DNA from: Methanobacteriota archaeon
GTDB lineage: Archaea > Thermoplasmatota > Poseidoniia > Poseidoniales > Poseidoniaceae
Reading direction: 5' to 3'
Length of the DNA stretch: 34,456 nucleotides
Assembly: GCA_018662825.1 (NCBI GenBank)
Contig: JABJFI010000001.1
Coordinates: forward strand, 1-34,456
Shown: one piece after another, positions 97 to 32,713 of the stretch
Layout: the number at the start of each line of letters is the position of its first letter
Position numbering within the stretch: the first letter of the stretch is position 1
The notes under the pieces: model-generated
Databases searched by the model: none
What the model was told of the DNA's origin: nothing
The model's input: only the letters and a program-made list of their open reading frames with translations
Position numbers and translations under genes: made by a program

Positions 97-102
97 TCTA
101 TT

Positions 103-4569: not shown

Positions 4570-4591
4570 TTTCCGGAACAATTGTTCTAAA

Positions 4592-4597: not shown

Positions 4598-4636
4598 GGC
4601 ATAACACTCTAAGAGGACTGTGGGAGAGGATAGGAT

Positions 4637-7162: not shown

Positions 7163-7163
7163 G

Positions 7164-7640
7164 TTATTCATTCGACTGAGGGCGGTCGTATTGCAAAGTC
7201 GTCATGCCATCCGAGTGGACAATCCAAACTGATGTGACTCCTGCGAGCACAACTGAACCTTCATGACTCCCAGCACCAGCACCAGAAATTGAAACATTTG
7301 TGTCTAGCGTACCACCTTCGTCAATTAATTCAATCGATGTATCAGTGAGCACTAGCGTCATTCGTGTTTCATCGGCTTCTGTAAGTCGCCAAGTTACCTT
7401 TTCAGCGTAATCCACAGACCCCATGCGACTTGCTTCATCTGCCCTTTCCACTGCAGCAGCAAGGTCATCCATATTGGATTGAATTGCATTTTCATTCCAT
7501 CGTTCGCGTGTCGCAGTTTCGATTTCATATGCCCATAGGCTGAACATGGTAAGAAGAAGCACTCCAAGAAGGAAGGTGAAAATATATCCCAATTCTGTTG
7601 CTGCAGCACGTTGGTCCTGCTTCAATGCCATTGTCCTCAA
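7164..7640 (-). CDS. Type IV pilin-like protein, third gene of a pilin operon
   Basis: A 158-residue exported protein with an archaeal prepilin-like N-terminus: short charged leader, then R11-A12-A13-A14 fitting the class III peptidase pattern, then a hydrophobic helix of about 20 residues (ELGYIFTFLLGVLLLTMFSL). The remaining 110 residues look like a small beta-rich head. It resembles the short pilin-like proteins of haloarchaeal pilin clusters (DUF7266-like, from memory). The TTG at 7640 is chosen because GGAGG at 7652-7648 lies seven bases upstream. It overlaps the previous gene's stop as TTGA, which indicates translational coupling. ATG at 7631 is the alternative. Likely role: minor pilin or pseudopilin at the cell surface. 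Confidence 0.75.
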   Translation of the reverse strand: MRTMALKQDQRAAATELGYIFTFLLGVLLLTMFSLWAYEIETATRERWNENAIQSNMDDLAAAVERADEASRMGSVDYAEKVTWRLTEADETRMTLVLTDTSIELIDEGGTLDTNVSISGAGAGSHEGSVVLAGVTSVWIVHSDGMTTLQYDRPQSNE

Positions 7641-9847: not shown

Positions 9848-10929
9848 CTAGAAACCTCCACTCTTTTGACATCGACTTCCAAGAACAGTTGTGCACCTTG
9901 GGTTTCTACGGTAAATCCGTCAGCACCGCTCGCTCTCAAGTAAGGTGCATAACCAATGTATGTGTCCAAAGTTCCAGAAGCTCTGTTAAGGGTATATTCT
10001 TCCAGTAATCGGTCATGGTATTGAGGGGTAATCAGGTCATTGAGAACATTTACAACTGTGAATTTAACATTGTATGCTTCTCCGGTGAACAATGTCATTG
10101 GCCCGAGTGAAAGCATGTTCATCCCGACTCTGTTCCCTGAACCTAGTGAGCCATTTATCCGAACATCATTAAGAACCAATGAAAGGCGCAGTTCACCGGT
10201 AACCAAAGTATCAACCTCTATGTTCGGAAATTGGGTGACTCTCCATGGCTCATTCGGAAATCGTTCAACTCGGGCATCATTCATCAAAGCAATCTGATGC
10301 TCGCCCATTCCCAAAAACGTTGAGATTTGAATGCCTGAGATAAGATATGTTACACTTCGATGAATTGCATTACCGTCCGCATCATAAACGGTTACTGACC
10401 TCCAATGTTGCTGAGAGGATGTATGGTTCACAATAACCTCTAGGTGTGATGATTCAAAGAGGTAATTTTCAATTCCTATTTCGGTTTCAATGGTAATGCT
10501 ACGTGCAGTTTCATTCATCGAAAAAATACCCAAAGCCGTACTGTTAGCATCACGTACAACTACCGAGTCATAAGGTGTTAAATCAGCAGCAATAGTCCAT
10601 GTCTCTACTTTTTCAATCGGCTGAATCATGGTAGATTGCAGAGCGAGTGTATGGCGGATACCAGTTCCATTTGGCGCACTGCCAGCAACATCGATACGGT
10701 CTTGAAACCGCTCAGCAATTCCATTTGCACTATTCCAATTTGTATTATCTTCAAAATCTGATACATAGGGGCTCAAAAAGATCCACACCCCTCCCATTAT
10801 TGTAATTACCATGGCGAGCATCATGATTACTCCAAGCACTTCGCTTACCGCCCTTTGGTCCCGACGAAGGGACGGGCGCAAAACTGTGTTTGCCTGTGCG
10901 TTCACAGTCGGCACACACTTCGGCATCAT
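9844..10929 (-). CDS. Type IV pilin-like protein (DUF7289-like), first gene of the pilin operon
   Basis: A 361-residue protein whose region RRDQRAVSEVLGVIMMLAMV (22-41) closely resembles haloarchaeal pilin starts of the RGVSPVIGVILMVAIT kind. R26-A27-V28-S29 fits the prepilin-peptidase pattern, with processing expected around A27/V28. A hydrophobic assembly helix follows to about residue 52, then a beta-rich domain of about 300 residues. It resembles the DUF7289 proteins of haloarchaeal pilin clusters (from memory). ATG 10929 and ATG 10926 are adjacent, and GAGGG lies eleven bases before the first. The leader of about 26 residues is longer than usual, and a later start cannot be excluded. A GC-only hairpin lies just upstream. 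Confidence 0.75.
   Translation of the reverse strand: MMPKCVPTVNAQANTVLRPSLRRDQRAVSEVLGVIMMLAMVITIMGGVWIFLSPYVSDFEDNTNWNSANGIAERFQDRIDVAGSAPNGTGIRHTLALQSTMIQPIEKVETWTIAADLTPYDSVVVRDANSTALGIFSMNETARSITIETEIGIENYLFESSHLEVIVNHTSSQQHWRSVTVYDADGNAIHRSVTYLISGIQISTFLGMGEHQIALMNDARVERFPNEPWRVTQFPNIEVDTLVTGELRLSLVLNDVRINGSLGSGNRVGMNMLSLGPMTLFTGEAYNVKFTVVNVLNDLITPQYHDRLLEEYTLNRASGTLDTYIGYAPYLRASGADGFTVETQGAQLFLEVDVKRVEVSR
9855..9859 (-). promoter_or_regulatory. Shine-Dalgarno GGAGG for the large pilin-like gene
   Basis: GGAGG on the minus strand, seven bases upstream of ATG 9847 and inside the end of the preceding coding sequence. It supports the chosen start and translational coupling. Confidence 0.55.
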
Positions 10930-12027: not shown

Positions 12028-15000
12028 ATGCGTCGAAGTTTAACCACTCTTCTAACCACTCTTGCCGTCGTTGCAAGTCTACTGTTCATGTCCCAATTTC
12101 CGGCTGTTTCATCAGTATCAAATCTCCACCCAGATACAACTGATGGCTCCAAGCCACCTTCTACCGATAGTGATGGAGATAAAATCCCCGATGTTCATGA
12201 AAACCTCTTCGAAGAATGGGTGAACTGGAGTTCCGTTGATGGGCGTGCAGTAATTATGCAGGGAATGGACAGCAATAATGCATCAGATGCCTTTGTTGAT
12301 ATTGACCACGATGGTTTGAATGCTACAGAGGAGTATTGTTGGCCGTATCCGGCGAATTGCACAGCCCCTGGATTCCCGCGAGGGTTAACAGGTACCGTCG
12401 ATAATGAGGGTGAGCGGAGCTACCTTGACCCTCGGATTGCGGATACGGATGGCGATGGAATGCCTGATGGTTATGAAGCCTATATGTGTGAACGTGTTGG
12501 CGGTTACAACATGTTTTCAATGAAATATGAATGTCAAAATTTCGACCCCCTTAATGGCTCAGACATTAATGATGACCCGGATGAAGACGGCTTTGATGTC
12601 AATAGAGACGGTGTATTATCGATTACGGAACGCTTTTCATCACCAGAAGAATATATCCAAGGTGCGCCGTTAAATCACACGACTGAGTTGGATGGAATGT
12701 GGTGTTCTGCAAGTTTGCCTGAAGGTTCCCTGTTCAAGAGTTGGCCATTTATTCCAACAGGTCAAAATGCAACATTTGATAATTTACTCTCTGCTTGTAC
12801 TGAAAACGCAACTATGGTCGTCGACCAAGACCTTTGGCTCGGGACCGACCCGCTCCTCGCTGATTCAGATCGTTATCACTGGGATGGATTTTCAATTCGT
12901 CGCCTTTTCCCTTCGTTTGGTGATGGAATTCCGGATGGCTGGGAGGTACATTTTGGTCTAGAGCCACTGAACCGAACCAACGCGCTGCTTGACCCCGACT
13001 CGGATGGCTGGGATGCTAATCGTGACGGAGGGGTATCTCCTGACGTCAGTCGTACATTGACAGCACTGGCTCTTGGGGAATCGCTTTCCACATTGGAGGA
13101 ATATTTTGTACATTACGACAATGGTAATTCAGTATTACCCGGTATGAAATCTGTTTCTCTTGGTAATCAAGATAGTACTCATCAATTTTTCCCATTGAGT
13201 TTTGTTGCAACTGAAGATGACATGAGTCTAATTCATCATGATATTCGTGATCTCGATGAAGATGGTTCTATGCTCTATGCCACCACACGTTATGGATTGA
13301 CGGTGTTCAATTACGACGAAATGAACAGTTTTGACCACTGGATGCCTCAAGGCGTGGAATTGCATGAATCCACTCTTCTCTCTCTTCAAGATTCATCTTT
13401 TGCCTTGGCAATTGCTACCAATGTGGGTATTGCGATTGCCCCCCTGCAGGCAGATGGAAACCTCGGGCCTCTCGAAACTTGGGCATGGTCCCTTTCCGAA
13501 GAAATATTTGCGCTGACACTTTTGAACATTGAAGGGCAGAATCAACATGTTCTCGGATTAGGGCAAAATGGCGAAGGTGCTGTGTTCGAGATTACCTCCT
13601 CATCTCAAATCGCACAACAATATGAAATTGCGATAGGGTTGCAAACCGCTTTGAGTCAATCTAATGCGAAGGTTACAGCAATTGCTCATGGCTCAGCAGG
13701 TGGAGGGAACAACACGCTGTATGTCGGAACAGACAGAGGATTAATCATAGGTGAAACAACCACTGCACGAGGTGCTTTTGATGCAACATGGAGATTTTAT
13801 TATACTCCAGAAGTCACACCTTTTCCAACTGCTATAGGTGAATTGCGCTCCCTTTCCCTCGGTATGGTAGCTAATCCTGCCGAAGTGCGGAGTATGGTTC
13901 TTGATGGCCCTACTCCCACCAATGCGCAGGTCTTGTGGTTTGGAACTCCTTCAGGTGTTCACATGCTACACCTCGTAGACAATACTATCTCTCACAGTGG
14001 ATTGCTAGAACATCCAGGCATCGATGGTCGGTATATGCGAGATTACAATAATGTATACTCAATTCTTCCAACAGGGGATGAAATTCTCGTTGGTTCAGAT
14101 AAGGGTCTATGGGCCATTTCAGGAGATTATTCTGCCGTATATGGGTTTCAAAAACAGGAACCAGTATTTGGTGAACTCGTCACAATTCAAACCCTAACAA
14201 TCGATGGAAATACTACAATCTATACTGGTTCATCACCGGGGCAATACGCCAACCTTGAATTGATGAATCCCGGTGCTAATGATTCAGATAACGATGGCAT
14301 GCCCGATGGTTGGGAGGTCGCCAATGGATTGGACCCAACAGACCCCTGGGACTCAATATTTGATACCGATGGTGACGGCATTGACCTTGACCAATCCGGT
14401 GATGGTTTTTTGGAACGCCTTTGGACAAATTTAGATGAATACAGATATGTGAGTCAAACTCTGAATGGGTATAATTCCACAAACCCCCGTGTTGGAGACA
14501 GCGACGGAGATGGTTTAGGTGATGGAAACGAATATTTCGGTTTCTTCTATGAAGACTCCACCCTTTGGTGCCATTATTCTGTTCAAATGGAATACATTTG
14601 CGATGATTTGGCAGGTCAAGAAGCCAATGCCACTTATCTCGGACTTTCAAGCAATGATCAAGGTACAGACCCGACAAATTTTGACAGCGACCAGGATGGA
14701 ATGCCCGATGGCTGGGAAATTAAGCATCGTCGCTGGATTGGCTCATCATTCACTGGCGGAAACAATTGGACACTTGACCCAAATCGAGCGGATGATGCAT
14801 TTTGGGATGCAGACCGTGATGGACTTGCTAATCTTTGTGAATATCAATGGTCTCTTGTTCGTGGTGCTGGCATCGAAGGCCTCTTGCTAGAATCACATGG
14901 AGAAACAATAAACTCGAGCCTTGAATGGTTTGAGGCAGACCCGAATAACATAGATTCTGATGGTGATACACTACCAGACGGTTGGGAATCTGGAGGTTTC

Positions 15001-17781
15001 TGTACTTGGGACCCTTCACGTCAAGGCGTAAATCCACTCAATGCATCCGACCTCTTTGAAAATCCAGATGGTGACGGTTATGATATCAATCATAATGGTA
15101 TTTTAGAAGATTCCGAGGCCTTCGTGAATTATCTAGAATTCCACGTTCGTTCAAACCTCTTTATTGGAAATCAAACATTCGACGGTGAGCCAATTCCAAA
15201 TGGGTTCTCCACTGATTTGTTCATGAATGTCAGTTCGTTTGGGATTCCTGAAGCAAACTTTGGAGACCGAGCTTCTGGTTCAGTTACGGCACTGCAAACT
15301 ATTACCGATATTGGTTCTTCTAACCCTCTTAATGCAGATTCGGATTCGGATGGAATGCCCGATGGCTGGGAAGTTTGGTTTGCTCGATGGGATATTCTTG
15401 AGGATGCATGGACCTTGAATCCGCTGGATTCTGCTGATCGGTGGGAAGATGCTGATGATGATGGAATGGCCAATTGGGAGGAATACAATGCTATTGCTCC
15501 AGAGCTTAGTGAAACAGACCAAAACCGAACAGCGCCACAATGGTTTGTAACTACAATTGGTTCAGCATTTGCGATGCAACAATGGCCAGGAAATACTGTC
15601 GAGTTCTCGTTTGGTTCTTTCATCTCTTCTGACCAAGTAAATTTGACTGGTTGGACATCTGATCCGAATAATATTGACACGGATGGAGATGGTATGATAG
15701 ATGGAATTGAACAGTTATTCACATCTTGGAATTTGACTGCTGAAACATGGACTCTTAACCCGCTAGTGCCGGGCGATGGAGGATTTGATGGTGACAACGA
15801 CGGACTCACTGATAGTCAAGAGTTCGCTATCGCTGTAGAGGCTCCAGTCAATGGATTAGACCACCCCTCAGATGCTCCTCTTCTTCACCTCGATGGTGAT
15901 GTTCAGCAACCAACAGAAAAGGCTCAGCGAGTTTTTAATATTCTTATCACCAAAGAAACGCGAGGAAAGCGTTTGTTGAGTGACTTTAATGATTGGCAGG
16001 CAGGCGTTCCAGCAAATGCAATTCTTTCGACACTTCTTGGTATGTCTGATCCGACCAATCCCGATACTGATGATGATGGGATGTATGATGGATTTGAATA
16101 TTGGTTTACAGAATGGGACTTAGAAGAGAACCGTTGGAGTATGAACCCACTTATTGATAGTGACGTCAACCTTGATACTGATGGTGATAGTTTCGATTGT
16201 GATGGAGATGGCAATATTTCCATGGATGAGCGCTTCTCCAATTTACGCGAATGGGAATCACGCACTTATGGTAAATATATTGAGCGATTCTCAGTTCCAG
16301 TTGCTGATGGAATTATCAATTTCGGAGACGATGCCATGGATGCATACATGGAAGAACTTGGCTTGTCGCCAATTCAAGCACAACAAGCACTCTACACTGA
16401 TTTTGCCTCTAAGAGTCAATCGAGTGCCGACCGAATGGCTATGATTAATGAATTCAATGAGGATAACTTCAATCGCACATTACTTGGAATTGCTGACCCG
16501 ACAAATAGTGATTCGGACTCTGACGGAATTGCAGATGGGTGGGAATATTGCTATGCCCTGTATGGTATGGAAGACACCACAACAATCAATCATTGGGCAT
16601 CCAACCCATTGAATCCTTGGGATGTTGATTATGATGGCGACCATGATGGTTGGTATGACCGCTCGAATTTCGACCAACCGGCTCAGCAAGGAACTTGGTC
16701 TGGGCGTGTATTCACGCCTGGGTCTGGAATTATTCAATCCGGACTTGGTGATTTGCCGTTCACCAATTGGATGGAATGGGACAACCAAACACGTCCGGAT
16801 TCAAACGACTCAGATGGAGATAGTGTGTCGTATTCGACGGTCGTATCCAATGGCACAGTTGTCTTCCATCAGCAAGATTTCAATCTGTCTGATGGGCGTG
16901 AAGTTTTCAAGTATGGAATTAATCCAAGTGATAATGATTCAGATGGCGACATGCTACCTGACTGGTACGAATATTCTAGAGGATGGAATGAAGATAACGA
17001 TAATTACAGTTCTTTGTTGCAAATCCGAGTTGTTTGGATAGATGCTGAAACTGGCGGTGCCTGTTCGACAGACACAAATTCATGTTTACCATTATCACAA
17101 CAAGGCGCTGGAGGCATTCTTTCTCGCCCTGAACTTTCATCGACATGGTTCACTTTGAATCCAGCAGATCCTGTTGATGCAAATTACGACCCAGACCAAG
17201 ATGGAAATTGGGATTGCACAGGAGCCGGATGTGTTTATGTTCCCTATACGAATTTCCAGGAATTCTATGCTATAACAGACACAGATCTCTCATCTCCGAA
17301 TGCTGTTCGCCTCAGCGGCATGATTTATGATGGAGAAATCGTTCTTGAATGGTGGCAATTACGTGCAGCATTATTGAAATTCGATTCATCGGGCTCAAGC
17401 AATGAAAATTACTTGAAGATGGATAAATCATTCGCGAATGATATTCGTTTTGCCTACCTTGTTGACGATAAAGATGTCAATTTCCTTATTCTCGATTCAA
17501 GCGATGATGAAGTTCGCTTGGCTGGTAACAGAACTGATTCTTGGGAGATTTACTATGCGGGTTCACCGAACACAGCACCAGTTCGTGCTGTAGGTGAACA
17601 CGAATTTGGTTGGTATCTGCTCGATTTGGACAATGACCACATTGCTGAAGGAACAGACCCAACCAATTGGGATACCGACGGTGATTGGATGGTCGATTGG
17701 TTCGAAGTGCATGATGATGAGCAAGATGGTGTTCGTGGTGATTCCTCGCCATTACGCTATGATTCGCGTCAAACTGAATGA
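12028..17781 (+). CDS. Giant secreted TSP3-repeat calcium-binding protein (1917 aa)
   Basis: A 1917-residue exported protein with an N-terminal signal peptide (MRRSLTTLLTTLAVVASLLF, cleavage near residue 29). About 13 copies of an acidic unit of the type D-S/T-D-x-D-G-M-P-D-G-W-E recur from residue 47 to near the end, each a thrombospondin-type-3/EF-hand-like calcium site. Many are followed by a WTLNPL-type segment and a second acidic turn such as DADDDGMANWEEY. Residues about 400-750 lack these units and look like a beta-propeller-type domain (recurrent strands, for example ATTRYGLTVFNYD and GTDRGLIIGETTT). The protein ends in a TSP3 unit with no transmembrane helix, lipobox or tail motif. 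It is probably a rigid, calcium-stabilised extracellular protein. The anchored protein encoded 70 bases downstream is a candidate partner. It is not a dockerin: the paired 22-residue dockerin architecture is absent. Confidence 0.85.
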   Translation: MRRSLTTLLTTLAVVASLLFMSQFPAVSSVSNLHPDTTDGSKPPSTDSDGDKIPDVHENLFEEWVNWSSVDGRAVIMQGMDSNNASDAFVDIDHDGLNATEEYCWPYPANCTAPGFPRGLTGTVDNEGERSYLDPRIADTDGDGMPDGYEAYMCERVGGYNMFSMKYECQNFDPLNGSDINDDPDEDGFDVNRDGVLSITERFSSPEEYIQGAPLNHTTELDGMWCSASLPEGSLFKSWPFIPTGQNATFDNLLSACTENATMVVDQDLWLGTDPLLADSDRYHWDGFSIRRLFPSFGDGIPDGWEVHFGLEPLNRTNALLDPDSDGWDANRDGGVSPDVSRTLTALALGESLSTLEEYFVHYDNGNSVLPGMKSVSLGNQDSTHQFFPLSFVATEDDMSLIHHDIRDLDEDGSMLYATTRYGLTVFNYDEMNSFDHWMPQGVELHESTLLSLQDSSFALAIATNVGIAIAPLQADGNLGPLETWAWSLSEEIFALTLLNIEGQNQHVLGLGQNGEGAVFEITSSSQIAQQYEIAIGLQTALSQSNAKVTAIAHGSAGGGNNTLYVGTDRGLIIGETTTARGAFDATWRFYYTPEVTPFPTAIGELRSLSLGMVANPAEVRSMVLDGPTPTNAQVLWFGTPSGVHMLHLVDNTISHSGLLEHPGIDGRYMRDYNNVYSILPTGDEILVGSDKGLWAISGDYSAVYGFQKQEPVFGELVTIQTLTIDGNTTIYTGSSPGQYANLELMNPGANDSDNDGMPDGWEVANGLDPTDPWDSIFDTDGDGIDLDQSGDGFLERLWTNLDEYRYVSQTLNGYNSTNPRVGDSDGDGLGDGNEYFGFFYEDSTLWCHYSVQMEYICDDLAGQEANATYLGLSSNDQGTDPTNFDSDQDGMPDGWEIKHRRWIGSSFTGGNNWTLDPNRADDAFWDADRDGLANLCEYQWSLVRGAGIEGLLLESHGETINSSLEWFEADPNNIDSDGDTLPDGWESGGFCTWDPSRQGVNPLNASDLFENPDGDGYDINHNGILEDSEAFVNYLEFHVRSNLFIGNQTFDGEPIPNGFSTDLFMNVSSFGIPEANFGDRASGSVTALQTITDIGSSNPLNADSDSDGMPDGWEVWFARWDILEDAWTLNPLDSADRWEDADDDGMANWEEYNAIAPELSETDQNRTAPQWFVTTIGSAFAMQQWPGNTVEFSFGSFISSDQVNLTGWTSDPNNIDTDGDGMIDGIEQLFTSWNLTAETWTLNPLVPGDGGFDGDNDGLTDSQEFAIAVEAPVNGLDHPSDAPLLHLDGDVQQPTEKAQRVFNILITKETRGKRLLSDFNDWQAGVPANAILSTLLGMSDPTNPDTDDDGMYDGFEYWFTEWDLEENRWSMNPLIDSDVNLDTDGDSFDCDGDGNISMDERFSNLREWESRTYGKYIERFSVPVADGIINFGDDAMDAYMEELGLSPIQAQQALYTDFASKSQSSADRMAMINEFNEDNFNRTLLGIADPTNSDSDSDGIADGWEYCYALYGMEDTTTINHWASNPLNPWDVDYDGDHDGWYDRSNFDQPAQQGTWSGRVFTPGSGIIQSGLGDLPFTNWMEWDNQTRPDSNDSDGDSVSYSTVVSNGTVVFHQQDFNLSDGREVFKYGINPSDNDSDGDMLPDWYEYSRGWNEDNDNYSSLLQIRVVWIDAETGGACSTDTNSCLPLSQQGAGGILSRPELSSTWFTLNPADPVDANYDPDQDGNWDCTGAGCVYVPYTNFQEFYAITDTDLSSPNAVRLSGMIYDGEIVLEWWQLRAALLKFDSSGSSNENYLKMDKSFANDIRFAYLVDDKDVNFLILDSSDDEVRLAGNRTDSWEIYYAGSPNTAPVRAVGEHEFGWYLLDLDNDHIAEGTDPTNWDTDGDWMVDWFEVHDDEQDGVRGDSSPLRYDSRQTE
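12163..17706 (+). repeat. about 13 TSP3-like acidic repeats within the giant secreted protein
   Basis: Core repeats encoding DxDxDGxxDGxE lie near 12163, 12442, 12920, 14281, 14497, 14684, 14956, 15338, 15676, 16065, 16510, 16936 and 17669. Several share near-identical DNA over GATGGAATGCCCGATGGCTG (14697, 15349). Spacing grows from about 190 bases in the middle to 400 or more near the end, and a gap from 12950 to 14280 holds the propeller-like domain. The unequal spacing suggests repeat units with inserted sequence rather than a strict tandem array. Confidence 0.75.
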
Positions 17782-17851: not shown

Positions 17852-20800
17852 ATGCAGAACGATTTATCCAACGGCCGCGGAATAATGTTCGTACTTTTTT
17901 TCATCATGGTTCTCTCACCGATGGGTCCGATGGCAGATATTGTTGTTGGCTCCGCAGATGCGTCAGGAGTCTCTAGGCACATCTATTCCCTTCATGATGG
18001 TTCAAGTGAATATGTTGCGCTTTACCAAGGTGCAAACCCCGATGCTGGTGCCATGATTGCACTGCCAAAGGGTGCATTGGTTACTGATGTTTCGATGACA
18101 CTTTCTGGTGCATCTGCCACAGGATGGAGCCAAACCGTTACTGATGACCGAGATGAATGGATGGAAGGAACATCCTCTGCCACCGATTCAAGGAGTGGTG
18201 ATTTGAGCCTTGCCTTTTCCAATCGCTCGACAATATTCTTCCCGCATGGTTATGATGAAATTGCAGATTCTGCTTCCGATGCATGGCTCGACAATGGTTC
18301 GTATGCAATTCGACAACCCCACACATCAAACTCGACAGAGAACAGATTTTCACAGCAATCACTCAAAACTTCTTCTAGTTTGATGAAACAAGGTCAAGGC
18401 GCAATCCTCAAACATCATGATTGGCTCTTTATGTCAACTTGGAGTTCATCTTCATTCCACAACATCGTGCATCGCCTATATCCAAATAATGCTACCAAAG
18501 AATCTGTGATCACTTTAGATCAAGGACAATGCACTCTGCCAAATTTGCATTCAAGTTCCTACTACGGAAGTTATGGTTTCCGTGATTGGACCATTACCGA
18601 TGATGAGCGTATGTTTGCCATTCTTTCTGGCTACCGATACCACTACCAATCATCTGCTCCAACACAATATCATCGTGTCCTCGAAATGGATATCTCGAGA
18701 GATGACACCTGGAAGTGCATCGATTCGTATGATGTTTCTCCGCAATATTCGGACTATACCGCCATTGCATATGATCGGGACACAGAAGATGTTTGGATTG
18801 TTCATAATGCTCAACGCAGAATTGTTCCTTACACATTTGGGGAACTGCCGAATGGGCAGTATACTCGTGGACAAGGCATGTTCGACTATTCTTCTTCGGC
18901 TGGGAGTTCTTGGCAATGTGGCAAAACAGGTCAACAAGTCCGTGGCCTAGAAGTCAATCAAAGCACATTCTTCATGCGTTGTCAAAAGGGTACTTCAAGT
19001 CAAGACAAAGACCAACTTGAAGCTTGGACAATCTCTGGGTCATCGACATCTTTGGTGCCACAATCTGGGACACGTTTACTCTCTGCTCTTGGCTACGGTC
19101 TCCAATTCGATGGTTCTCGTTTCGTAACTGTTGACTGTGGATACTCGACCTGGTCCTCAGCAACATTGTACTATCGGGAATATGGTACTGGGTGGCAATA
19201 CAAAACTACACCTGCTCCGGGAACAACTACATGGTATGGGCCAGTAACTGAATCCGGCGACCTAATTCGGAGTGTAAATATGCAAACCTATTGGTCCGCA
19301 GCATCAATTGGTGACCGTGTTGATTACTGGGTTTCTGCAGATAATGGCACCCATTGGGAATCTGTCGAATCTAATTCTACGATCCACTTTGATTACCCTG
19401 GTAACGAATTGGTATGGAAAGCCCAATTGATTGGTTCGACAGCAGTATCTTGGTGGGTTGATGTTGAGTATTCAACTGAATATGCTTTGTCCGGTAGTTG
19501 GACTTCACCACCTCATTCAACAGGTACCAAAGTAGGAAAAGTTCGGCCAAATTGGGTAGCTGATGTCCCTTCAGGAACAACATTCGAGGTTAAAGTTTCT
19601 AATGATAATGGTACTACTTGGCTTGAGGCAACAAACAATCAGGAAGTTAGTTTCCCATCTACTGGGGCAGGAGATAAGATTCGATATGCAGTCATTTTGA
19701 AAACTACTGATGCCACATTATCTCCTTTGGTTGATTCGATTACAATGGAATACGAGGAAGGTTATCCAGACCGACCGAAATTGGACATTGGTAATGATTT
19801 GATTTGGGATTGGGAGTCCATCCTTTTCTTGAATGAATCAGCAGTTGTCGCAAGTGACAATTCCATAGTAAATGTGGATGTCAAAGCCCAACCCACTCTT
19901 GTTCAAGCGTTTAATTCACTCATTCCACAAAACGGTGATGGGGATGTGTTAATCCCTATCGCAGTGAAGGCAGCAACCTCAGGACGTGTGAAAATATCTA
20001 ACATCGATATTGCTTACAAGATGCAAACTCGTGCGATTGATGCGTCGTTAGAAGGGGGCCTTCTTTCTCCAGATGGTGTGTATCGTAATTTGCAGGTACG
20101 TATCGCACCTGGTGACGATGTTGATCGTGTAACAGGTTCTCTTATTGCCCTCAATAATTCATACGGTGAAAACCCTGCCTTTGATTGGCAACGCGGTGAT
20201 ACATGCTCGGTAGTCAGCGATGCTGGAGGTATTGTTCAGTTTGATGTTGCGAATTGTACTTCAACTATTGACTCCAATGGAATGGTCTCGATACGTATGC
20301 CGGTTACTGTTAATTGGACTTGGGATGATGAAAGCAAAATGCAAGCGCTAATTTCAATCGAGGATGACTTAGGTCAAGCAGTGGCCAATTGGGAAACTGA
20401 AGATTTAGATATCATTGTTGAAAACGATATTCAGTTAGATGGTTTACGAGTCTATGAAGAGACAGGAAGAGAATTGTATTCTCAAGACTGGGTTCGTGGT
20501 GGATTTAATCTATCGTTTACAGGTGGAATAAATTTCCAAAACTCTCAACTTTCTCCACTAGCAGGCCAATTTTCATTACGGATATTGGGGCAAAATGTGA
20601 CTTACGATGGTGATCCAATAGGGGAGCCTATCCTTTTGGCCCAAGAGCAAAACCCTGCGTTTGGAGAATACAATATCACGTTCCAATCACCAATTCAATC
20701 TGAACCGGGAGGAATGATATTCTATGTCGAAGCAATACAGATGCAAAATGGTTCGGTATATGCTAATCCGGGATACAATACAATACGACTTGTATTGGAT

Positions 20801-23257
20801 GGCAATTCACCTCTTGTCCTTTCCTCAACACCGAATGATGGTAGTGAACGTCATGCTGGACCTCCTGCACCTGGTGGACAAGCCGTGAGTATTGTCATTC
20901 AAGATTCAGTTGACCCACCAAATCAAGTTACTTTGAATTATTGGATTGGTTGCAAAGCGAGTGAGGCACTTGGTTGCAGCGATTACAATTTTGATGGTTT
21001 GCCAAATTCAGATGAATATGAAATGAAAACTCTCACTTCACCTGACACGCGAGCCGGCGGATTGAATATTTTTGAAGGCCTAATCGATGATTCAATGCTT
21101 CAGCACGGCCAACATGTTTCCTACTTTGTCACTGGAAAAGATGCTCAGGACAACGAGATTGCAATGGGAGGTGGGCCGGTCTGTCCTGACAGCAACATCG
21201 CCTGTGGATATGTGCCTGGAGAAGAAATTCCTGATTGGGATAACGATTTGGGAACTTACCGAATCCGTGTTGAATTTGAGCCGGAACTAGACCTTGATAA
21301 TTCAACCATACTCGGCCACGACGACCAATCACCATTACACCCAGGGATACCATACACCGCCCAAGTCGTTCTTTCAGACCGCAATGGTTGGCAAGATATT
21401 CAATATATTCAACTTGCTCTAGGTGGTAATTTTGACGATGATGAAACTTCTGTATTCATTTCTTTAACTAGAGGTGCAGATGGTGAGCCAATTGCCGTTA
21501 TGGAATCAGGTTCTGCAAATATTGCAGTTTCAAATCTGTATTCAAGTGTAGATTTGGATGAAACGGACAATAATATAATCAAGATTCTAGCCCGCTTCCA
21601 ATTGACATGGACATTCCCTGAATCATTTGATACAAACGGAATCAGCATGATTCTTCCAAAAATACTCGTTACTGATTTACCATGCAATGAGGGCGAAGAG
21701 AATCCATGTTTCGAAGCCACTGCTGGTTTAGGAAACGATGCATGGAGCCTCGATAATGATTTCAGATTCGATACCATGGAGGGGCATATTAGGGCGGTGG
21801 AACTTCGCGATGGAACAAATCACTACAATTCAGATTTCCAAGAGACACTCATAGGTGCGGGACAAGCATTGCGCGTCAACGGCCGCGTACTCTTTTCTGA
21901 AGATGAAACACCTGCTCCACCAGGTGCGTTTGATGTGATCTTTGGCGATTATGATAACACCTGGAAAACCTCAACAAGAGGAGATGGAGAGTTTAGTCTT
22001 GATATCTTGATTCCATCAGTTCCTTCAGGCCACCTTGATCTTCGTCTCGAACTTGATGATTTACCTGGTTTGGCGATGGACGAAACCTCAACACTCCAAC
22101 GAGTTCGCCTTGCAGTCGACAGTTCTCGCCCAACTATTGCGGCAATTTCTTTGGATGAAACCATGTCTGGTTCAAACTTGTCAATCGGTGCTTGTGGTGA
22201 CTTACTTGTCATGCTTGAGACAATTGATGACCATGGGTTTGACCTTGGCGAGCCCGCAGTCTTGCACTATCGCGTCCGAGCAGGTGAAGCAGAGATCTCA
22301 CGTGGTAGTGTGCCATTACCTGATACAACTCCTTTTGGCGACCAATTTTTCTGGACAGGAAATCTAGACCTTACCGATGCAGGGTCGACGACATTATTGC
22401 CATCCTATATGGTCGATGTTTGGGTTTCCGGTTCCGATTCAGCAGGTAATCCTTTCAATACCCTAGGAAATACACTTTTACAACCAATTGCCTCTTGGCC
22501 ATTAGCTCTACTTGGTCCTAGTATTGATTTGAATGCAGCAACTAGTTCTTTTTCATGGGACGACCCGAGCCCTATAACTCAGCAATCGGTCGGACTTGAC
22601 TTTGAAGTTAGGAACCTCGGAGGTAAAGGTGATGTGGCGTTTATCTTGCAACGTGCAGTTGAAGGAGGTTTCTGGGAAGATGCATCACGAGTTGACCTTG
22701 TTGCCACTGCAGGCGCTGTTGTGGCTGGAAAACTTCCTACAGTAGCCAATGTCGAGGCTGGCGAAAATATTGAATTCCGTCTTCTTGTTTTAGTTGACGA
22801 GGTTGAAATGGATCGTAAGACACTCGACCCTTTGCTGGTCAAAGGAGAAACGATTCGTGATGGAGAGGCTCTTGCCCTTCAAGCAAAACAAGGAACATTC
22901 AGCATTGTTCTTTACCTCATTGCATTGCTTTCCCTCAGTCTCGCCATGTGGTTATTGGTAATGAATCGCAGAATCCGTGAAGAAGAACTTGAAGGTGGTG
23001 CTTCTGACCAAACATCCGAAGTTCTCGATGAACTAAATCATTCCAAAGCACTACCTGAGATTGATGGTAATATGCCCCCACCTCCCGGTTTGATGATTCC
23101 ACCACCTCAAGCAGTTCCTGCACCAATAGCGCAGGCTACACCTTCAGCAGCAACACCGGCCCCACCGCCAATTCCGCCGACTGGATTACCTCAGGGATGG
23201 ACTCAAGACCAATGGAACCACTTTGGATGGCAATATGTTGAAGCAATGAAAAAGTGA
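17852..23257 (+). CDS. Giant anchored surface protein with Trp-rich cytoplasmic tail (1801 aa)
   Basis: An 1801-residue type I membrane protein. The signal peptide has hydrophobic core IMFVLFFIMVLSPMG (residues 11-25). Residues about 130-480 look propeller-like with many aromatic strands. Residues 488-550 and 577-638 are two related beta domains (VSADNGTHWE, VSNDNGTTWL) that appear duplicated. Further Ig-like beta domains fill 650-1670, including an acidic NFDGLPNSDEYEM turn. One transmembrane helix spans about 1681-1703 (IVLYLIALLSLSLAMWLLVM) and is followed by NRRIREEE, consistent with positive-inside topology. The tail is proline-rich and ends with GLPQGWTQDQWNHFGWQY, also seen in the protein encoded at 29951-32713. 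Probably a surface adhesin or scaffold. It lies between the unanchored TSP3 protein and a small cytosolic gene that starts nine bases after its stop. Confidence 0.85.
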   Translation: MQNDLSNGRGIMFVLFFIMVLSPMGPMADIVVGSADASGVSRHIYSLHDGSSEYVALYQGANPDAGAMIALPKGALVTDVSMTLSGASATGWSQTVTDDRDEWMEGTSSATDSRSGDLSLAFSNRSTIFFPHGYDEIADSASDAWLDNGSYAIRQPHTSNSTENRFSQQSLKTSSSLMKQGQGAILKHHDWLFMSTWSSSSFHNIVHRLYPNNATKESVITLDQGQCTLPNLHSSSYYGSYGFRDWTITDDERMFAILSGYRYHYQSSAPTQYHRVLEMDISRDDTWKCIDSYDVSPQYSDYTAIAYDRDTEDVWIVHNAQRRIVPYTFGELPNGQYTRGQGMFDYSSSAGSSWQCGKTGQQVRGLEVNQSTFFMRCQKGTSSQDKDQLEAWTISGSSTSLVPQSGTRLLSALGYGLQFDGSRFVTVDCGYSTWSSATLYYREYGTGWQYKTTPAPGTTTWYGPVTESGDLIRSVNMQTYWSAASIGDRVDYWVSADNGTHWESVESNSTIHFDYPGNELVWKAQLIGSTAVSWWVDVEYSTEYALSGSWTSPPHSTGTKVGKVRPNWVADVPSGTTFEVKVSNDNGTTWLEATNNQEVSFPSTGAGDKIRYAVILKTTDATLSPLVDSITMEYEEGYPDRPKLDIGNDLIWDWESILFLNESAVVASDNSIVNVDVKAQPTLVQAFNSLIPQNGDGDVLIPIAVKAATSGRVKISNIDIAYKMQTRAIDASLEGGLLSPDGVYRNLQVRIAPGDDVDRVTGSLIALNNSYGENPAFDWQRGDTCSVVSDAGGIVQFDVANCTSTIDSNGMVSIRMPVTVNWTWDDESKMQALISIEDDLGQAVANWETEDLDIIVENDIQLDGLRVYEETGRELYSQDWVRGGFNLSFTGGINFQNSQLSPLAGQFSLRILGQNVTYDGDPIGEPILLAQEQNPAFGEYNITFQSPIQSEPGGMIFYVEAIQMQNGSVYANPGYNTIRLVLDGNSPLVLSSTPNDGSERHAGPPAPGGQAVSIVIQDSVDPPNQVTLNYWIGCKASEALGCSDYNFDGLPNSDEYEMKTLTSPDTRAGGLNIFEGLIDDSMLQHGQHVSYFVTGKDAQDNEIAMGGGPVCPDSNIACGYVPGEEIPDWDNDLGTYRIRVEFEPELDLDNSTILGHDDQSPLHPGIPYTAQVVLSDRNGWQDIQYIQLALGGNFDDDETSVFISLTRGADGEPIAVMESGSANIAVSNLYSSVDLDETDNNIIKILARFQLTWTFPESFDTNGISMILPKILVTDLPCNEGEENPCFEATAGLGNDAWSLDNDFRFDTMEGHIRAVELRDGTNHYNSDFQETLIGAGQALRVNGRVLFSEDETPAPPGAFDVIFGDYDNTWKTSTRGDGEFSLDILIPSVPSGHLDLRLELDDLPGLAMDETSTLQRVRLAVDSSRPTIAAISLDETMSGSNLSIGACGDLLVMLETIDDHGFDLGEPAVLHYRVRAGEAEISRGSVPLPDTTPFGDQFFWTGNLDLTDAGSTTLLPSYMVDVWVSGSDSAGNPFNTLGNTLLQPIASWPLALLGPSIDLNAATSSFSWDDPSPITQQSVGLDFEVRNLGGKGDVAFILQRAVEGGFWEDASRVDLVATAGAVVAGKLPTVANVEAGENIEFRLLVLVDEVEMDRKTLDPLLVKGETIRDGEALALQAKQGTFSIVLYLIALLSLSLAMWLLVMNRRIREEELEGGASDQTSEVLDELNHSKALPEIDGNMPPPPGLMIPPPQAVPAPIAQATPSAATPAPPPIPPTGLPQGWTQDQWNHFGWQYVEAMKK

Positions 23258-23266
23258 GTTTTTGAA

Positions 23267-23719
23267 ATGACTGGCGAGAAGGCTTCGGCCGTAGATGGAA
23301 TGGTGACTTTGCAAGAACGCATGGTCAATCTCATCAATCAATTAAACATGCCATTGATCGAAGTGAGTCTTGTTTTAAGTAAACATATAGCTGGACTTTC
23401 TCGCTCATTGGACGAACACATCAGTGCAACTCAGCAAGAATTCCCTGATACAGTGACGCACCCATGGGTGATCGAAAACCCGGAATCAGATGGCAATGAG
23501 TTTACTTTTGACCTCGATAAAATACTCAAAATTATCGATGCAGACCGAATGGATATTTTGGCAACACTTATTCGTGTGACGCTCGTTGAAATTGATGCCT
23601 CATTAGCAGAGGGTTTGTTGGCACTTAGGCCATGGGAAGCCCTCTCAAGAACTCAATTGTCCAAGGCAAAAGGCCCAGGCCAATTATTTTCACCTCTTGA
23701 GATACCTGAAGACTGGTAA
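23267..23719 (+). CDS. Small helical cytosolic protein of unknown function
   Basis: A 150-residue protein that I do not recognise. No signal peptide or transmembrane segment is visible. Residues about 10-58 and 88-130 look helical and amphipathic (for example VTLQERMVNLINQLN and DKILKIIDADRMDILAT), with a Pro/Trp-containing turn between them (THPWVIENP) and a short tail ending IPEDW. Its ATG lies nine bases after the stop of the 1801-residue surface protein with no clear ribosome-binding site, so it is very likely co-transcribed and perhaps translationally coupled. That context suggests a cytosolic partner of the surface protein's tail; this is inference only. Confidence 0.7.
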   Translation: MTGEKASAVDGMVTLQERMVNLINQLNMPLIEVSLVLSKHIAGLSRSLDEHISATQQEFPDTVTHPWVIENPESDGNEFTFDLDKILKIIDADRMDILATLIRVTLVEIDASLAEGLLALRPWEALSRTQLSKAKGPGQLFSPLEIPEDW

Positions 23720-28742: not shown

Positions 28743-28748
28743 GGTGAG
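28743..28748 (+). promoter_or_regulatory. Shine-Dalgarno GGTGAG that decides the dnaJ start
   Basis: GGTGAG ends four bases before ATG 28753. It contains the alternative GTG 28744, so the ATG is the better start. The resulting protein begins MSEKRDYYEVLG, as DnaJ proteins usually do. Confidence 0.5.
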
Positions 28749-28752
28749 TGCA

Positions 28753-29880
28753 ATGTCGGAGAAGCGGGATTACTACGAGGTCTTAGGAGTAGCGAAAGAA
28801 GCTACTTCATCTGATCTAAAAAACGCATTCCGCAGCCTTGCCCGAAAGTATCATCCCGACCGAAGCGAAGAAGAAAATGCTGAGGATATGTTCAAGGAAA
28901 TTCAAGAAGCATATGCAGTTCTCTCTGATGATGAAAAGCGTGCACAATACGACCGATTTGGGCACAATGGCCCAGGCGGTTCACCATTTGGAGGATTTGG
29001 TGGTGGGGGATTCAATATCAACCTAGAGGATATTCTTGGAGGAGATTTCTTTTCAAATATCTTCGGTGGTGGTGGTGGCGGTGGCCGTCGCGCCAGACGT
29101 CGTGGTAGTGATATTCGGATGTATCATACCGTTGATTTGGAAAAAATATACCGAGGAAGTACAGAAGAAGTTGAGGTCGAATTACCGGTGGCATGTACCC
29201 AGTGTGCAGGAACCGGAGCGAAAGATGGAGCGATTTCTGACTGTGGTGATTGCAGCGGACAAGGGCGAGTTCGAATGCGACAACAAGTTGGACCCTTTGT
29301 CCAAGATGTCGTAAGGGAGTGCCCCACATGCGATGGTGCAGGACATCAAATCGATGAGCGGTGCAGCCCTTGCCGAGGAAATGGAAAAGAAATCAAAACC
29401 TCAACTCTACGATTCAATATTCCTGCTGGTGCAGAAGCAGGAACTCGTCTACGTATGCGAGGAAAAGGCGAACCGGCACCAAATGGCAAAGGAGAGGATG
29501 GAGACCTATTCATTGAAATTGATGTCGACCAACATCTGTGGTTTGAACGTTCCAATGCTGATTTAATAATGTCTCTTCCACTTGGTTACTCTGATTTGGT
29601 TTTGGGTACAAGCGTTAGCGTCGAGCATATTGATGGTAAGGAATTGGTTATCAAGATTCCACCATATTCAAATTCAGGAGACACAATTGAAATCAAAAAG
29701 CGCGGATTGCCACGTAACAGAGGTTCTGGTCGTGGTGACGTCATTGTTCTTCTCAAATTGCACATGCCGAAAAAGGTCGACAAAAAATCCAAGAAATCTC
29801 TTCAAGATTTGAAATCTGTTCTCGGACCAAAAGACCTGCTTGAAAGAATAAAGCAAGATGCTAAAGAGCGCCGGAATTGA
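28753..29880 (+). CDS. dnaJ: Type I DnaJ (Hsp40) co-chaperone
   Basis: A 375-residue co-chaperone that would stimulate DnaK (Hsp70) ATPase activity and deliver unfolded proteins. The J domain is at residues 5-70, with the essential H34-P35-D36. A Gly/Phe-rich linker runs 71-115 and includes a long Gly run encoded by GGT repeats. The zinc-binding domain has four CxxCxGxG motifs starting at C148, C164, C190 and C204. The client-binding C-terminal domains follow. Everything needed for function is present and the length is typical. DnaK and GrpE are not in this window. The start is ATG 28753, supported by GGTGAG. The gene is flanked by a zinc-ribbon membrane protein and a surface protein. Confidence 0.95.
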   Translation: MSEKRDYYEVLGVAKEATSSDLKNAFRSLARKYHPDRSEEENAEDMFKEIQEAYAVLSDDEKRAQYDRFGHNGPGGSPFGGFGGGGFNINLEDILGGDFFSNIFGGGGGGGRRARRRGSDIRMYHTVDLEKIYRGSTEEVEVELPVACTQCAGTGAKDGAISDCGDCSGQGRVRMRQQVGPFVQDVVRECPTCDGAGHQIDERCSPCRGNGKEIKTSTLRFNIPAGAEAGTRLRMRGKGEPAPNGKGEDGDLFIEIDVDQHLWFERSNADLIMSLPLGYSDLVLGTSVSVEHIDGKELVIKIPPYSNSGDTIEIKKRGLPRNRGSGRGDVIVLLKLHMPKKVDKKSKKSLQDLKSVLGPKDLLERIKQDAKERRN

Positions 29881-29950: not shown

Positions 29951-32713
29951 ATGATGAACAAGCAGATAAGCATAATTCTCCTCAGTCTTTTGCTTTTTTC
30001 GATTCCCTCAAATGCAATTGCTTCAAAAGATTCACCTGTTGTTTCTCAGTTTGGTGTAGGCTTTGATGAGGTGGTAATTGCTGACTCCTCCGATGCTCTT
30101 TCCGACCCACGTGATTTGGAATTTCATCCTGGTCGGGCGAACGAATTGTGGGTGGCTAACAGAGCAACAGACAGCATTACGATTGTTCAAAATACAGGGC
30201 TTGAGAACCAAACTTCCCATAATCGCCAAGATTCAAATCGAAACCATTTCCTTGAAGAAGTAAGTTCAATCGCGTTTGGAGCATACCATCCAGAGTTCGA
30301 TTGGCAATGGGGTTCAGCCCAAGAGACCCGAAACACATTTTGTGGCCAAGGGGCGCCGAACAATTTCATGGGTCCAACTTTATGGCCCTCTTCATTGAAT
30401 CACTTTGCGGTGGAAAATCAAAACAATGGCAACGGTCTTCTTGGTAGTCATATCGATATGAACCATGAATCACCATATGGAGTTGGTATTGCTCACGATT
30501 CTGGCAATAAATATTGGTATAATGATGGATATTATGGGGAACTTGTGTATTATGATTTCCAAGTGGACCATGACACTGGTCAAGACGACCACTCCGATGG
30601 AATTGTCCGCCGATATGTGGATGTCCAACTCACTCATTCTTATGGCGTTCCTGGTCACATGATTTTGGACCAAGATTCAGGAATTCTTTACATTGCAGAT
30701 GCGGGAGCAAACCGTGTGTTATGGGTAAATACCGATGATACATCATATAATACCCAGGACATCATGGGTGATCCATCTCGACTGGAACCACTTGAAGAAT
30801 ATTCAAGCATAACTGGAATTGAATGGGGGGTTTTGGCATCCGGCCTCAACCGACCTTCAGGAATCGCTCTAGATGGTGACCAACTCTTTGTTTCCCTCAA
30901 TGGCAATGGAAAGATCGTTGCATATGACTTGAATAACGATGGCAAAAGCGCCTCTGTAGCTGATACGATTCAAACCACTGCTTCATCTATAATGGGCCTT
31001 GAAATTGGTCCGAATGGACATCTCTACTATGTCGATAATGGTCAAGATGAAGTCGTTCGCATCGACCCATATATGGATGAAGATGGAGATGGTATAGGTG
31101 ACGATGTTGATAATTGCCCATTGATTACCAATCCTTCTCAAGCCAATTACGATGGCGATGCACTTGGAGATGTGTGTGATAATGATGATGATGATGATGG
31201 AATCCTTGATCTTGCTGATGACTGCCATCTTGGAAATTTAAGCTGGATTTCTTCAACAGCAACAGACTATGATATGGACGGTTGTGCCGACCTCACTGAA
31301 GATTCCGATGATGATAACGATGGTGTTTTGGATCTGGTAGACTATTGTGCGACCGGTGACCTTGGATGGACTTCGACCACAACTTCGGATTATGACTTCG
31401 ATGGTTGCAGAGATTCTGGTGAAGACTATGATGATGATAACGACCGCATTTGTGATGCACTGGTATCCGATGGGGTTTGGGCCTGTAGCATTTCATCTGT
31501 AGATGTAGACTTCTGTCCAACAAGCCCTATCTCTTTCTTTTCAACCACCAGCAATGACGGCGACCGAGACGGATGTGAAGATATATCTGAAGATCTTGAT
31601 GACGATAATGATGGCTTTTCCGACAGCATCGATAACTGCCCTAAAAACGCTGGAACCAGCGATGCAGGCTCCCTCATAGGTTGCACTGATTGGGATGATG
31701 ATGGTTATGCAGATTCAATTGATGAATTCCCTATCGAACCAACTCAATGGTTCGACCTCGATGGTGATGGTTTTGGAGATGAAATCAATGGATTTGAGGG
31801 TGATTCCTGTGTCTCCGTCTCAGGCACATCATCGGAAGACCGTCTCGGCTGTCTTGATTCTGATGGTGATGGTTGGTCGAATCCAGATATGGATTGGACC
31901 GTTGCTTTAGGCGCTGACGCCTTCCCAACATACAGCACCCAGCATGCTGACCAAGATGGCGATGGTTATGGAGATGCTGCGGATGGATTTCAACCTGATT
32001 CTTGTCCCGTGATTGAAGGTTACTCGTCAGAGGATGTCTTTGGATGTCTTGATACAGATGGCGATGGCTGGTCAGATGCCATAGATGCTTTCCTGAATGA
32101 TTCAAGTCAATACCTTGATGCTGACCAAGATGGTTATGGGGATTCAATGACGGGTAATTCACCCGATGCTTGCCCGGGACTTTTTGGTAGTTCAAGTGAA
32201 CAACGTCTCGGCTGCCCAGATACAGATGGTGATGGATGGGATGATGGTCTCGATATGTTCCCTAGTGATGAACGGTTTTGGTCAGATTTCGATGAGGACG
32301 GATACCCCGACCAAAACGGAACGAACATGAGCGATGATTGTCTTGAAGTCGCTGGAACTTCTCATCAAGGCCTCATCGGTTGCCCAGATGGTGATGGGGA
32401 CGGTTGGTCTGACCAGGCAGATGCCTTCCCAATGGATGCTTCAAGGTATCTTGCTATGGATGATTCGTCCTTCCCTGGTGCCCTTGTTCTAGTGGCCTTA
32501 GGAGTAGTTGTCATGGTGCTTATTGGTTTTGCTCTAATGAGTCGCCGTAGAGTCGACAATACGCCAAACAGTCCTCCTTTCGTGAACGCCCCAGTTCAGT
32601 TTACCGCTCCCGCTGTACCAACAACCCCGCCCCTACCTCCTGAAGGTCTTCCGAATGGCTGGACAATGGACCAATGGGCTTGGTATGGTGAAGATTACCT
32701 TAAGAACCGTTAA
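29951..32713 (+). CDS. Anchored surface protein with NHL-like propeller and TSP3 repeats
   Basis: A 920-residue type I membrane protein. The frame is open from 29858, inside dnaJ, but the tandem ATGs at 29951 and 29954 are chosen because they begin a signal peptide (MMNKQISIILLSLLLF, cleavage near NAIA). Residues about 40-370 look like a six-bladed NHL-type beta-propeller (for example DPRDLEFHPG, LYIADAGANRVLWV, GLNRPSGIALDGDQLFVS). Residues 373-830 are TSP3 calcium-binding repeats (DEDGDGIGDDVDNCP and many DxDGDGWSD units). One helix spans about 841-863 (ALVLVALGVVVMVLIGFALM), followed by SRRR and a Pro-rich tail that ends GLPNGWTMDQWAWYGEDY. The tail matches that of the 1801-residue protein. 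Likely a surface receptor or adhesin. Confidence 0.85.
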   Translation: MMNKQISIILLSLLLFSIPSNAIASKDSPVVSQFGVGFDEVVIADSSDALSDPRDLEFHPGRANELWVANRATDSITIVQNTGLENQTSHNRQDSNRNHFLEEVSSIAFGAYHPEFDWQWGSAQETRNTFCGQGAPNNFMGPTLWPSSLNHFAVENQNNGNGLLGSHIDMNHESPYGVGIAHDSGNKYWYNDGYYGELVYYDFQVDHDTGQDDHSDGIVRRYVDVQLTHSYGVPGHMILDQDSGILYIADAGANRVLWVNTDDTSYNTQDIMGDPSRLEPLEEYSSITGIEWGVLASGLNRPSGIALDGDQLFVSLNGNGKIVAYDLNNDGKSASVADTIQTTASSIMGLEIGPNGHLYYVDNGQDEVVRIDPYMDEDGDGIGDDVDNCPLITNPSQANYDGDALGDVCDNDDDDDGILDLADDCHLGNLSWISSTATDYDMDGCADLTEDSDDDNDGVLDLVDYCATGDLGWTSTTTSDYDFDGCRDSGEDYDDDNDRICDALVSDGVWACSISSVDVDFCPTSPISFFSTTSNDGDRDGCEDISEDLDDDNDGFSDSIDNCPKNAGTSDAGSLIGCTDWDDDGYADSIDEFPIEPTQWFDLDGDGFGDEINGFEGDSCVSVSGTSSEDRLGCLDSDGDGWSNPDMDWTVALGADAFPTYSTQHADQDGDGYGDAADGFQPDSCPVIEGYSSEDVFGCLDTDGDGWSDAIDAFLNDSSQYLDADQDGYGDSMTGNSPDACPGLFGSSSEQRLGCPDTDGDGWDDGLDMFPSDERFWSDFDEDGYPDQNGTNMSDDCLEVAGTSHQGLIGCPDGDGDGWSDQADAFPMDASRYLAMDDSSFPGALVLVALGVVVMVLIGFALMSRRRVDNTPNSPPFVNAPVQFTAPAVPTTPPLPPEGLPNGWTMDQWAWYGEDYLKNR
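31070..32440 (+). repeat. TSP3 calcium-binding repeat region
   Basis: A dense run of Asp-rich repeats in the surface protein: first the classic thrombospondin form with Cys (VDNCPLITNPSQ), then about six copies of a longer unit with the pattern LGCxDxDGDGWxDxxDxFPxDxxQxxDxDxDGYGD. Adjacent copies near 31860, 32050, 32220 and 32390 have closely related DNA. A GAT trinucleotide run lies near 31180-31200. The region probably forms a calcium-rigidified stalk between the propeller and the membrane. Confidence 0.75.

Follow-up and report, generated by a model that had tools for sequence, protein, structure and literature searches.

A short conserved tail at the C-termini of surface proteins with unrelated ectodomains in Poseidoniales, a putative cytosolic docking module

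The window analysed here, the whole stretch of 34,456 nucleotides at positions 1 to 34,456 of contig JABJFI010000001.1 (assembly GCA_018662825.1, Methanobacteriota archaeon), encodes two large predicted membrane proteins of 1801 and 920 residues that end in the same conserved tail, referred to below as the GLPxGW tail. The tail is real, old, and under selection, and it lies outside the family libraries searched. As judged from sequence, this one tail ends surface proteins with unrelated ectodomains, thereby defining a class. We hold with moderate confidence that it is a cytosolic docking mini-module, composed of a polyproline stretch and a short aromatic helix, that is read by a shared partner. 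The features of the two window proteins are as follows.

17852..23257, plus strand: 1801-residue predicted type I membrane protein of ectodomain group E4 (from the list of open reading frames; grouped with 7 other loci)
22904..22960, plus strand: predicted membrane helix of the 1801-residue protein (mean hydropathy 2.61; MNRRIR follows)
23159..23254, plus strand: conserved tail of the 1801-residue protein, APPPIPPTGLPQGWTQDQWNHFGWQYVEAMKK (from translation; profile match at 23159-23248)
29951..32713, plus strand: 920-residue predicted type I membrane protein of group E1, beta-propeller-like and TSP3-like (from the list of open reading frames)
32483..32539, plus strand: predicted membrane helix of the 920-residue protein (mean hydropathy 3.06; SRRR follows)
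32621..32710, plus strand: conserved tail of the 920-residue protein, TTPPLPPEGLPNGWTMDQWAWYGEDYLKNR (from translation, profile match, and a helix in the AlphaFold2 model)

Translation of positions 23183-23254 gives the end of the 1801-residue protein as GLPQGWTQDQWNHFGWQYVEAMKK, and that of positions 32645-32710 gives the end of the 920-residue protein as GLPNGWTMDQWAWYGEDYLKNR. A preliminary description of this DNA had placed both tails there, at the ends of their frames and after one membrane helix, basic residues, and a Pro-rich linker, and both translation and hydropathy analysis agree with it. The two ectodomains had been described as different; no mutual BLASTP match was found between them at E 1e-8, and they sort into separate ectodomain groups, E4 and E1. 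The 1801-residue protein has no Pfam match at E 1, and the TSP_3, Lactonase, and NHL matches of the 920-residue protein are all under the Pfam cut-offs. The tail of the 1801-residue protein is among the less typical ones: it has no Met after GWT, and HFG replaces the usual HYG.

A search of the genome of origin (1.96 Mb, 123 contigs) using the tail of the 920-residue protein as the query found nine further places (E ≤ 1.2e-6). Ten complete tails are present in this genome, every one C-terminal in its reading frame, with 8–14 residues following the stretch matched by the search pattern; the contig start truncates one of these frames (L006) on its N-terminal side. The profile of the ten tails, which was built from the same tails that it scores, gave values of 2e-19 to 1e-15 for them and also matched, in the same genome, a fragment truncated by the end of its contig (C24) and a more divergent instance (C91, E 0.05). 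The mean pairwise identity among the ten tails is 0.63 over 25 residues, compared to 0.106 for the 25 residues immediately before the tail in the same proteins and to a mean of 0.095 (maximum 0.117) for 200 within-sequence shuffles of the tails. The nine matches, the profile scores, and the comparison with the shuffles indicate that the likeness of the tails is beyond chance. In seven four-fold degenerate codon columns, where the same residue occurs in 9 or 10 of the ten tails, the third bases agree in 68 of 297 pairs (0.229), which is no higher than the 0.29–0.32 expected from the codon usage of the same genes. The third codon positions thus vary freely where the residues stay, showing that selection acts at the protein level and that recent duplication and gene conversion do not explain the likeness.

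A wider set of tails was collected from 121 sources, comprising the window, ten stretches of its own genome, the 30 best-scoring loci of a search of the order, and the 80 best loci of a named collection; the same place may occur twice among the latter two. The tail profile matched 136 frames at E < 1e-4. Removal of a duplicate (L011, the same as L003) left 135 frames, and exclusion of L094, which contains unread bases, left 134 frames with 118 unique tails for the consensus. The consensus is PP[LVI]P-x-x-GLP-x-GWT-M-[ED]-QW-x-[HWY]-YG-x-x-[YW]-L, with frequencies of P(.96), P(.95), P(1.0), T(.97), M(.92), Y(.98), and L(.93), and the pattern GLPxGW[TS]xxQWxx[YFH]G fits 133 of the 134 frames overall and all ten in the own genome. 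The conserved block is longer than the motif given in the preliminary description (GLPxGWTxDQWxxxGxxY), beginning earlier, at PP[LVI]P, and extending to [YW]L. The unique tails are net acidic (mean −2.7). In most frames (114 of 134), no more than 25 residues follow the first Trp, and in the other 20 about 100 at most; 19 of these 20 belong to group E2 and one to E11. Nineteen of the 135 frames continue for 31–74 residues beyond the profile match. In eighteen E2 frames (L070, L084, L087, L097, L109, L110, L116, and others), the tail is followed by 31–74 residues that close with a variant of LLDDLDL, a further C-terminal motif.

Searches of libraries did not assign the tail to any family. At E 10, the two window tails and that of L003 had no match in Pfam, and these three GLPxGW tails together with that of L084 had none in NCBIfam; the sole NCBIfam match of the L118 tail was an unrelated desaturase model (E 0.2). 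A sub-threshold match of the divergent tandem tail of L009 to MbtH (E 0.0055) was regarded as chance. A PDB sequence search with the tail gave nothing significant, the best match being Salvador homolog 1 (E 0.77) and the next the ligase Itchy (E 1), both of them WW proteins. The GLPxGW of the tail resembles the start of a WW domain. Assignment as a WW domain was rejected, however, since the three tails searched have no Pfam match at E 10, the predicted structure is a helix and not a three-stranded sheet, and the tail is too short. In the literature, mostly open-access and judged by titles and abstract openings, no paper on the GLPxGW tail was found.

The tail is restricted to one lineage in the genomes searched. 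All 222 genomes of the order matched the profile at E up to 0.001, and in a subset of 145 of them all matched at E up to 0.01, while none of 21 genomes of the class outside the order (family f3) matched at E up to 0.001. Among 145 genomes drawn from the phylum, the 34 belonging to the order all matched, as did 2 of the 111 others; these two matches (G285 and G296, E 0.008) were rejected as spurious, being 42-residue frames with an internal stop. The search of the named collection was the only one that extended to other archaeal phyla and to bacteria. The best 80 of its 417 confirmed loci all come from records titled Euryarchaeota, euryarchaeote, Marine Group II, Poseidoniales, Poseidoniaceae, Thalassarchaeum, or Thalassarchaeaceae, a coverage that leaves room for rare cases outside the order. 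From these titles, we take the order to be Candidatus Poseidoniales (Marine Group II). Of 37 pattern matches in viral contigs, none was confirmed as a tail. The copy number per genome is 5–12 in the own family and 1–7 in the other family, so that the preliminary description was right about a shared tail but, in naming two proteins, understated the size of the class. Its proposal of a class of surface proteins agrees with the collected matches, which lie at or near the C-terminus after a predicted helix; neither internal hits in soluble proteins nor a lack of recurrence was encountered. A search for the E5 ectodomain gave no match in 12 genomes of the class from outside the order and one short weak match (G246, E 1.9e-6) among five other genomes of the phylum, so that the gain of the tail could not be traced on an ortholog.

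A hydrophobic helix is predicted upstream of the tail in 133 of the 135 proteins, 23–136 residues away (median 61), and the two cases without it are L006, which lies at a contig edge, and L029, where sequence is masked. Lys and Arg are commoner after this helix than before it in 121 of the 133 proteins, equal in 8, and fewer in 4, and no hydrophobic helix lies C-terminal to the tail in any of the 135. Among the 78 frames that are complete at the N-terminus, all have a hydrophobic N-terminal segment, and 63 have no further segment in mid-protein. Because of the position of the helix, the Lys/Arg asymmetry, and the N-terminal hydrophobic segment, the tail is predicted to be cytosolic and the proteins to be type I single-pass membrane proteins with the tail inside. 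The linker between the helix and the tail is Pro-rich but itself unconserved, and it may act as a flexible tether.

Clustering of the proteins without their tails gave eight multi-member ectodomain groups along with three singletons; the singleton L029 is masked and hence uninformative. Pfam matches above the cut-off in different groups are Peptidase_S8 (subtilase), Arylsulfotransferase, CARDB, and PKD; TSP3 and propeller-like matches are below it, and for the representatives of E3, E7, and E11 Pfam gave nothing at E 0.01.

The structure of the 52-residue cytosolic end of the 920-residue protein was predicted by AlphaFold2 together with 33 relatives (A2), with a mean pLDDT of 75.9 and a pTM of 0.43; the block means of pLDDT over residues 31–50 are 88 and 89. 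One helix is predicted, at residues 38–51; it begins just past GWT and stops close to the C-terminus. When this helix is drawn as a wheel, the conserved positions (Gln, Tyr, Thr, Tyr/Trp, Trp, Gly, Met, and Leu) gather on one half, which is aromatic. The tail is thus predicted to consist of an extended proline stretch and a GLPxGWT turn leading into a 14-residue helix with an aromatic conserved half. In the pancreatic-polypeptide fold and the Trp-cage, a proline stretch is packed on a short aromatic helix, an arrangement that would fit the order of the conserved residues in the tail.

The cytosolic end can differ on one and the same ectodomain. Two orthologs of the 1801-residue protein in the other family (L148 at 4300-9891, genus g18; L151 at 2173-7698, genus g14) show 43% identity over about 1720 residues and keep the ectodomain. 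Their cytosolic ends have no GLPxGW tail, carrying an EF-hand-like stretch (below the Pfam cut-off) and a module of the W-S-D-E-Q-L / G-W-T-x-E-Q-I type. The retention of the ectodomain with a swapped cytosolic end indicates that the tails are exchangeable parts, and from their sequences they resemble plugs for the inner side that can replace one another and that share a GW[TS]xEQ helix start.

Several related ends were also observed. The second module, W[ST]DEQLLxxGWTxEQIxxxR, is found near the C-termini of membrane proteins (L157, L159, L162, and L163), and its carriers include L158 in the own genome (G000:C100); it sits before the membrane helix once (L155), and one instance follows a zinc-ribbon-like start. 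A tandem diverged tail, PxGWSxEQYRxWLEGEMPEGWTLxQW, occurs on a 1750-residue family (L009:3860-9118, which is G000:C91, and L129-L143); of the 40 relatives examined, 14 have it, and these 14 all belong to the own genus. In the window, a Trp/Tyr-rich end, HPGWLWDAQSNQWVADPNY, follows a membrane helix at 4384-4566 (protein 94-4569) and is single-copy in the genome. A further Trp/Tyr-rich end past a membrane helix is GTHWYLANNGEHWYSTDDGYRVF (L001:184-2280), and GDGYYYQYLEDGTY (L118:4130-4294) follows a GLPxGW tail within one protein.

Two genes next to the window proteins bear on the search for a partner.

23267..23719, plus strand: 150-residue protein N18, encoded immediately after the E4 gene (so placed in 8 of 8 E4 loci)
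28744..29880, plus strand: DnaJ, encoded immediately before the 920-residue tail protein (Pfam DnaJ, DnaJ_C, and DnaJ_CXXCXGXG)

N18, a conserved cytosolic neighbour, is present in 74 of 98 genomes of the class (41 of 41 in the own family, 33 of 36 in the other family, and 0 of 21 outside the order), in single copy, the gene of G025 being split over two contigs. Its range equals that of the tail except for three misses, all in genus g16 (G017, G044, and G063), each of which has 3–4 tails. Ten loci of the other family were fetched, and N18 was recovered in eight. In six of these it directly follows a giant TSP3 protein, the tail gene being absent, and in the remaining two it follows an E4 ortholog bearing another tail; the tail profile has no match in the ten loci. 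The AlphaFold2 model of N18 is poor (mean pLDDT 61). N18 was rejected as a reader of the tail, since it tracks the TSP3 giant and not the tail and since g16 has tails without it; it more likely belongs to the gene cluster of the TSP3 giant. In the window, this giant is a 1917-residue TSP3-repeat protein at 12028-17781, heading a gene cluster that is kept in both families, with N18 after it; its orthologs are found in L144-L146, L148-L151, and L153.

Other neighbours are tied to single ectodomain groups. The thermosome (chaperonin) is the next gene on the same strand in 23 of 23 E3 loci and also follows tail fragments in L006 and L121, giving 25 of 25 scorable loci. LonB is next in 6 of 6 E5 loci and, with L122-L124, in 9 of 9 scorable ones. 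The chaperonin was identified by Pfam and LonB by Pfam LonB_AAA-LID and Lon_C, and the calls were extended to L121 and L122-L124 by BLASTP. Both E3 and E5 loci occur in both families (e.g., G023 and G086 for E3; G130 and G011 for E5). These adjacencies, noticed post hoc, suggest a link to folding or turnover. The gene next to E2 frames encodes a 209-residue protein in 18 of 35 cases, a partner E2 protein in 14, and another protein in 3. As the upstream neighbour of the E1 gene, 19 of the 37 loci with an upstream gene have a conserved 843-residue protein that lacks a Pfam match at E 0.01 (e.g., L001:5995-8523); as the downstream neighbour, 10 of 42 have a ParA-type ATPase on the opposite strand (e.g., L058:6686-7696).

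The most economical reading of these results is a shared cytosolic docking module, for which the partner could be a reader protein, other tails, or the folding machinery. One common cytosolic partner would grip the aromatic face of the helix plus the proline stretch, and the same inner machinery would hold, place, or couple adhesin-like, protease, sulfotransferase-like, and propeller-like outer proteins. The preliminary description had named docking, sorting, and quality control as possible roles, and these cannot yet be distinguished as the role of the tail. Several points weigh against a shared docking module. The topology of the tail is a predicted one, and the 118 unique tails come mostly from best-scoring loci and are biased towards the consensus, a bias of which the ten tails of the own genome are free. 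Some genomes of genus g11 (G001, G028, and G110) have a single tail protein, for which the idea of one organiser serving many proteins is less convincing. A Foldseek search of the tail model against the PDB gave one match (E 6.9) and nothing significant. The dedicated cytosolic reader postulated in the preliminary description was not borne out by gene neighbourhoods: in a partial survey, with about 1.5 kb of flank at many loci, none of the neighbour families present in at least 6 loci is found again next to a different tail family, apart from genes of a single shared cluster and cases in which truncation obscures the ectodomain group.

The lack of a reader gene travelling with the tail genes would be accounted for if the tails fold as small polyproline-plus-helix units, like the pancreatic-polypeptide fold, and bind each other, clustering the surface proteins without a separate reader. 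The order of proline stretch, turn, and aromatic-faced helix, the helix in the model, and an invariant Gly as a possible packing point are compatible with such self-association. We nevertheless consider it unlikely, since the net acidic charge of the tails disfavours clustering and the Foldseek search revealed no significant match to a solved mini-fold. The presence of the thermosome next to E3 genes and LonB next to E5 genes raises another alternative, that the tail reports to cytosolic chaperones or LonB and times folding, insertion, or turnover. E5 carries the sole strong tail in the three single-tail g11 genomes read, and DnaJ precedes the 920-residue protein, being the immediate upstream neighbour in 2 of the 37 E1 loci with an upstream gene. 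The adjacency was, however, observed without a genome-wide control, and the neighbours of E6, E7, E8, and E10 in the own genome have no evident link to folding as judged by eye. In addition, chaperonin and Lon are general archaeal proteins, whereas the tail is restricted. A tag for folding or quality control appears quite improbable as the function of the tail.

An amphipathic aromatic helix could also lie in the plane of the membrane on the inner leaflet as an anchor. Trp and Tyr, both present in the tail, are interfacial residues, and the hydrophobic moment of the consensus helix is 0.39. The helix is, however, net negative (mean −2.0) and net positive in none of the 118 unique tails, which argues against a lipid-binding helix, and the strictly conserved Gln, Gly, and GLPxGW would be unneeded for lipid binding; we regard such an anchor as very unlikely. 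The occurrence on many proteins of one lineage, the C-terminal position, and the orthologs with alternative tails recall processing or sorting signals of the PGF-CTERM, LPXTG, or GlyGly-CTERM type. According to passages of PMC3237569, LPXTG, PEP-CTERM, PGF-CTERM, and GlyGly-CTERM are C-terminal homology regions shared by secreted proteins that have nothing else in common; the pairing is many-to-one, homologs may bear other tails, and the motif lies before the membrane helix, with a basic cluster at the protein end. The GLPxGW motif is located beyond both the helix and the basic cluster, the opposite arrangement to that in those passages, and implies no cleavage. This architecture already contradicts such a signal, and no curated CTERM model of NCBIfam matched the tails searched; we rejected this type of signal and leave it hardly any probability.

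For the docking module, the closest comparison is provided by the TRAP-family adhesins of Apicomplexa. As described in passages of PMC5015959, these are type 1 surface proteins that differ in their outer parts; their cytoplasmic C-termini have a conserved Trp close to the terminus and bind one cytosolic protein, aldolase, which has been proposed as the link from the tails to the inner machinery. The archaeal tail proteins are likewise predicted to be type I, fall into several ectodomain classes, and have a C-terminal tail with conserved Trp. On the other hand, the archaeal tail is unrelated in sequence, and TRAP tails do not have the proline-GLPxGW turn; a partner has been proposed for TRAP only, and no motor is known to be involved with the archaeal tail. 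By analogy, and with no homology implied, the tail could work like those of TRAP adhesins. We tentatively extend the docking module to a more specific, possible scheme: a dedicated Poseidoniales cytosolic adaptor or cortical scaffold may read the GLPxGW tail and organise surface adhesins and enzymes, and the WSDEQL-GWTxEQI/EF-hand tails may couple those ectodomains to another machine, perhaps one linked to calcium.

Marine Group II has been described, in the abstract of PMC6461757, as the planktonic archaea with the highest abundance in surface waters, at that date without cultured representatives. The tail serves as a sequence mark for gathering members of the class from ocean metagenomes. 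To our knowledge, how Marine Group II hold and use giant surface proteins has not been worked out, and a 25-residue handle on 5–12 proteins per own-family genome offers a direct entry to the inner machinery. If the adaptor or scaffold scheme is true, it would represent a cell-surface coupling system peculiar to Poseidoniales.

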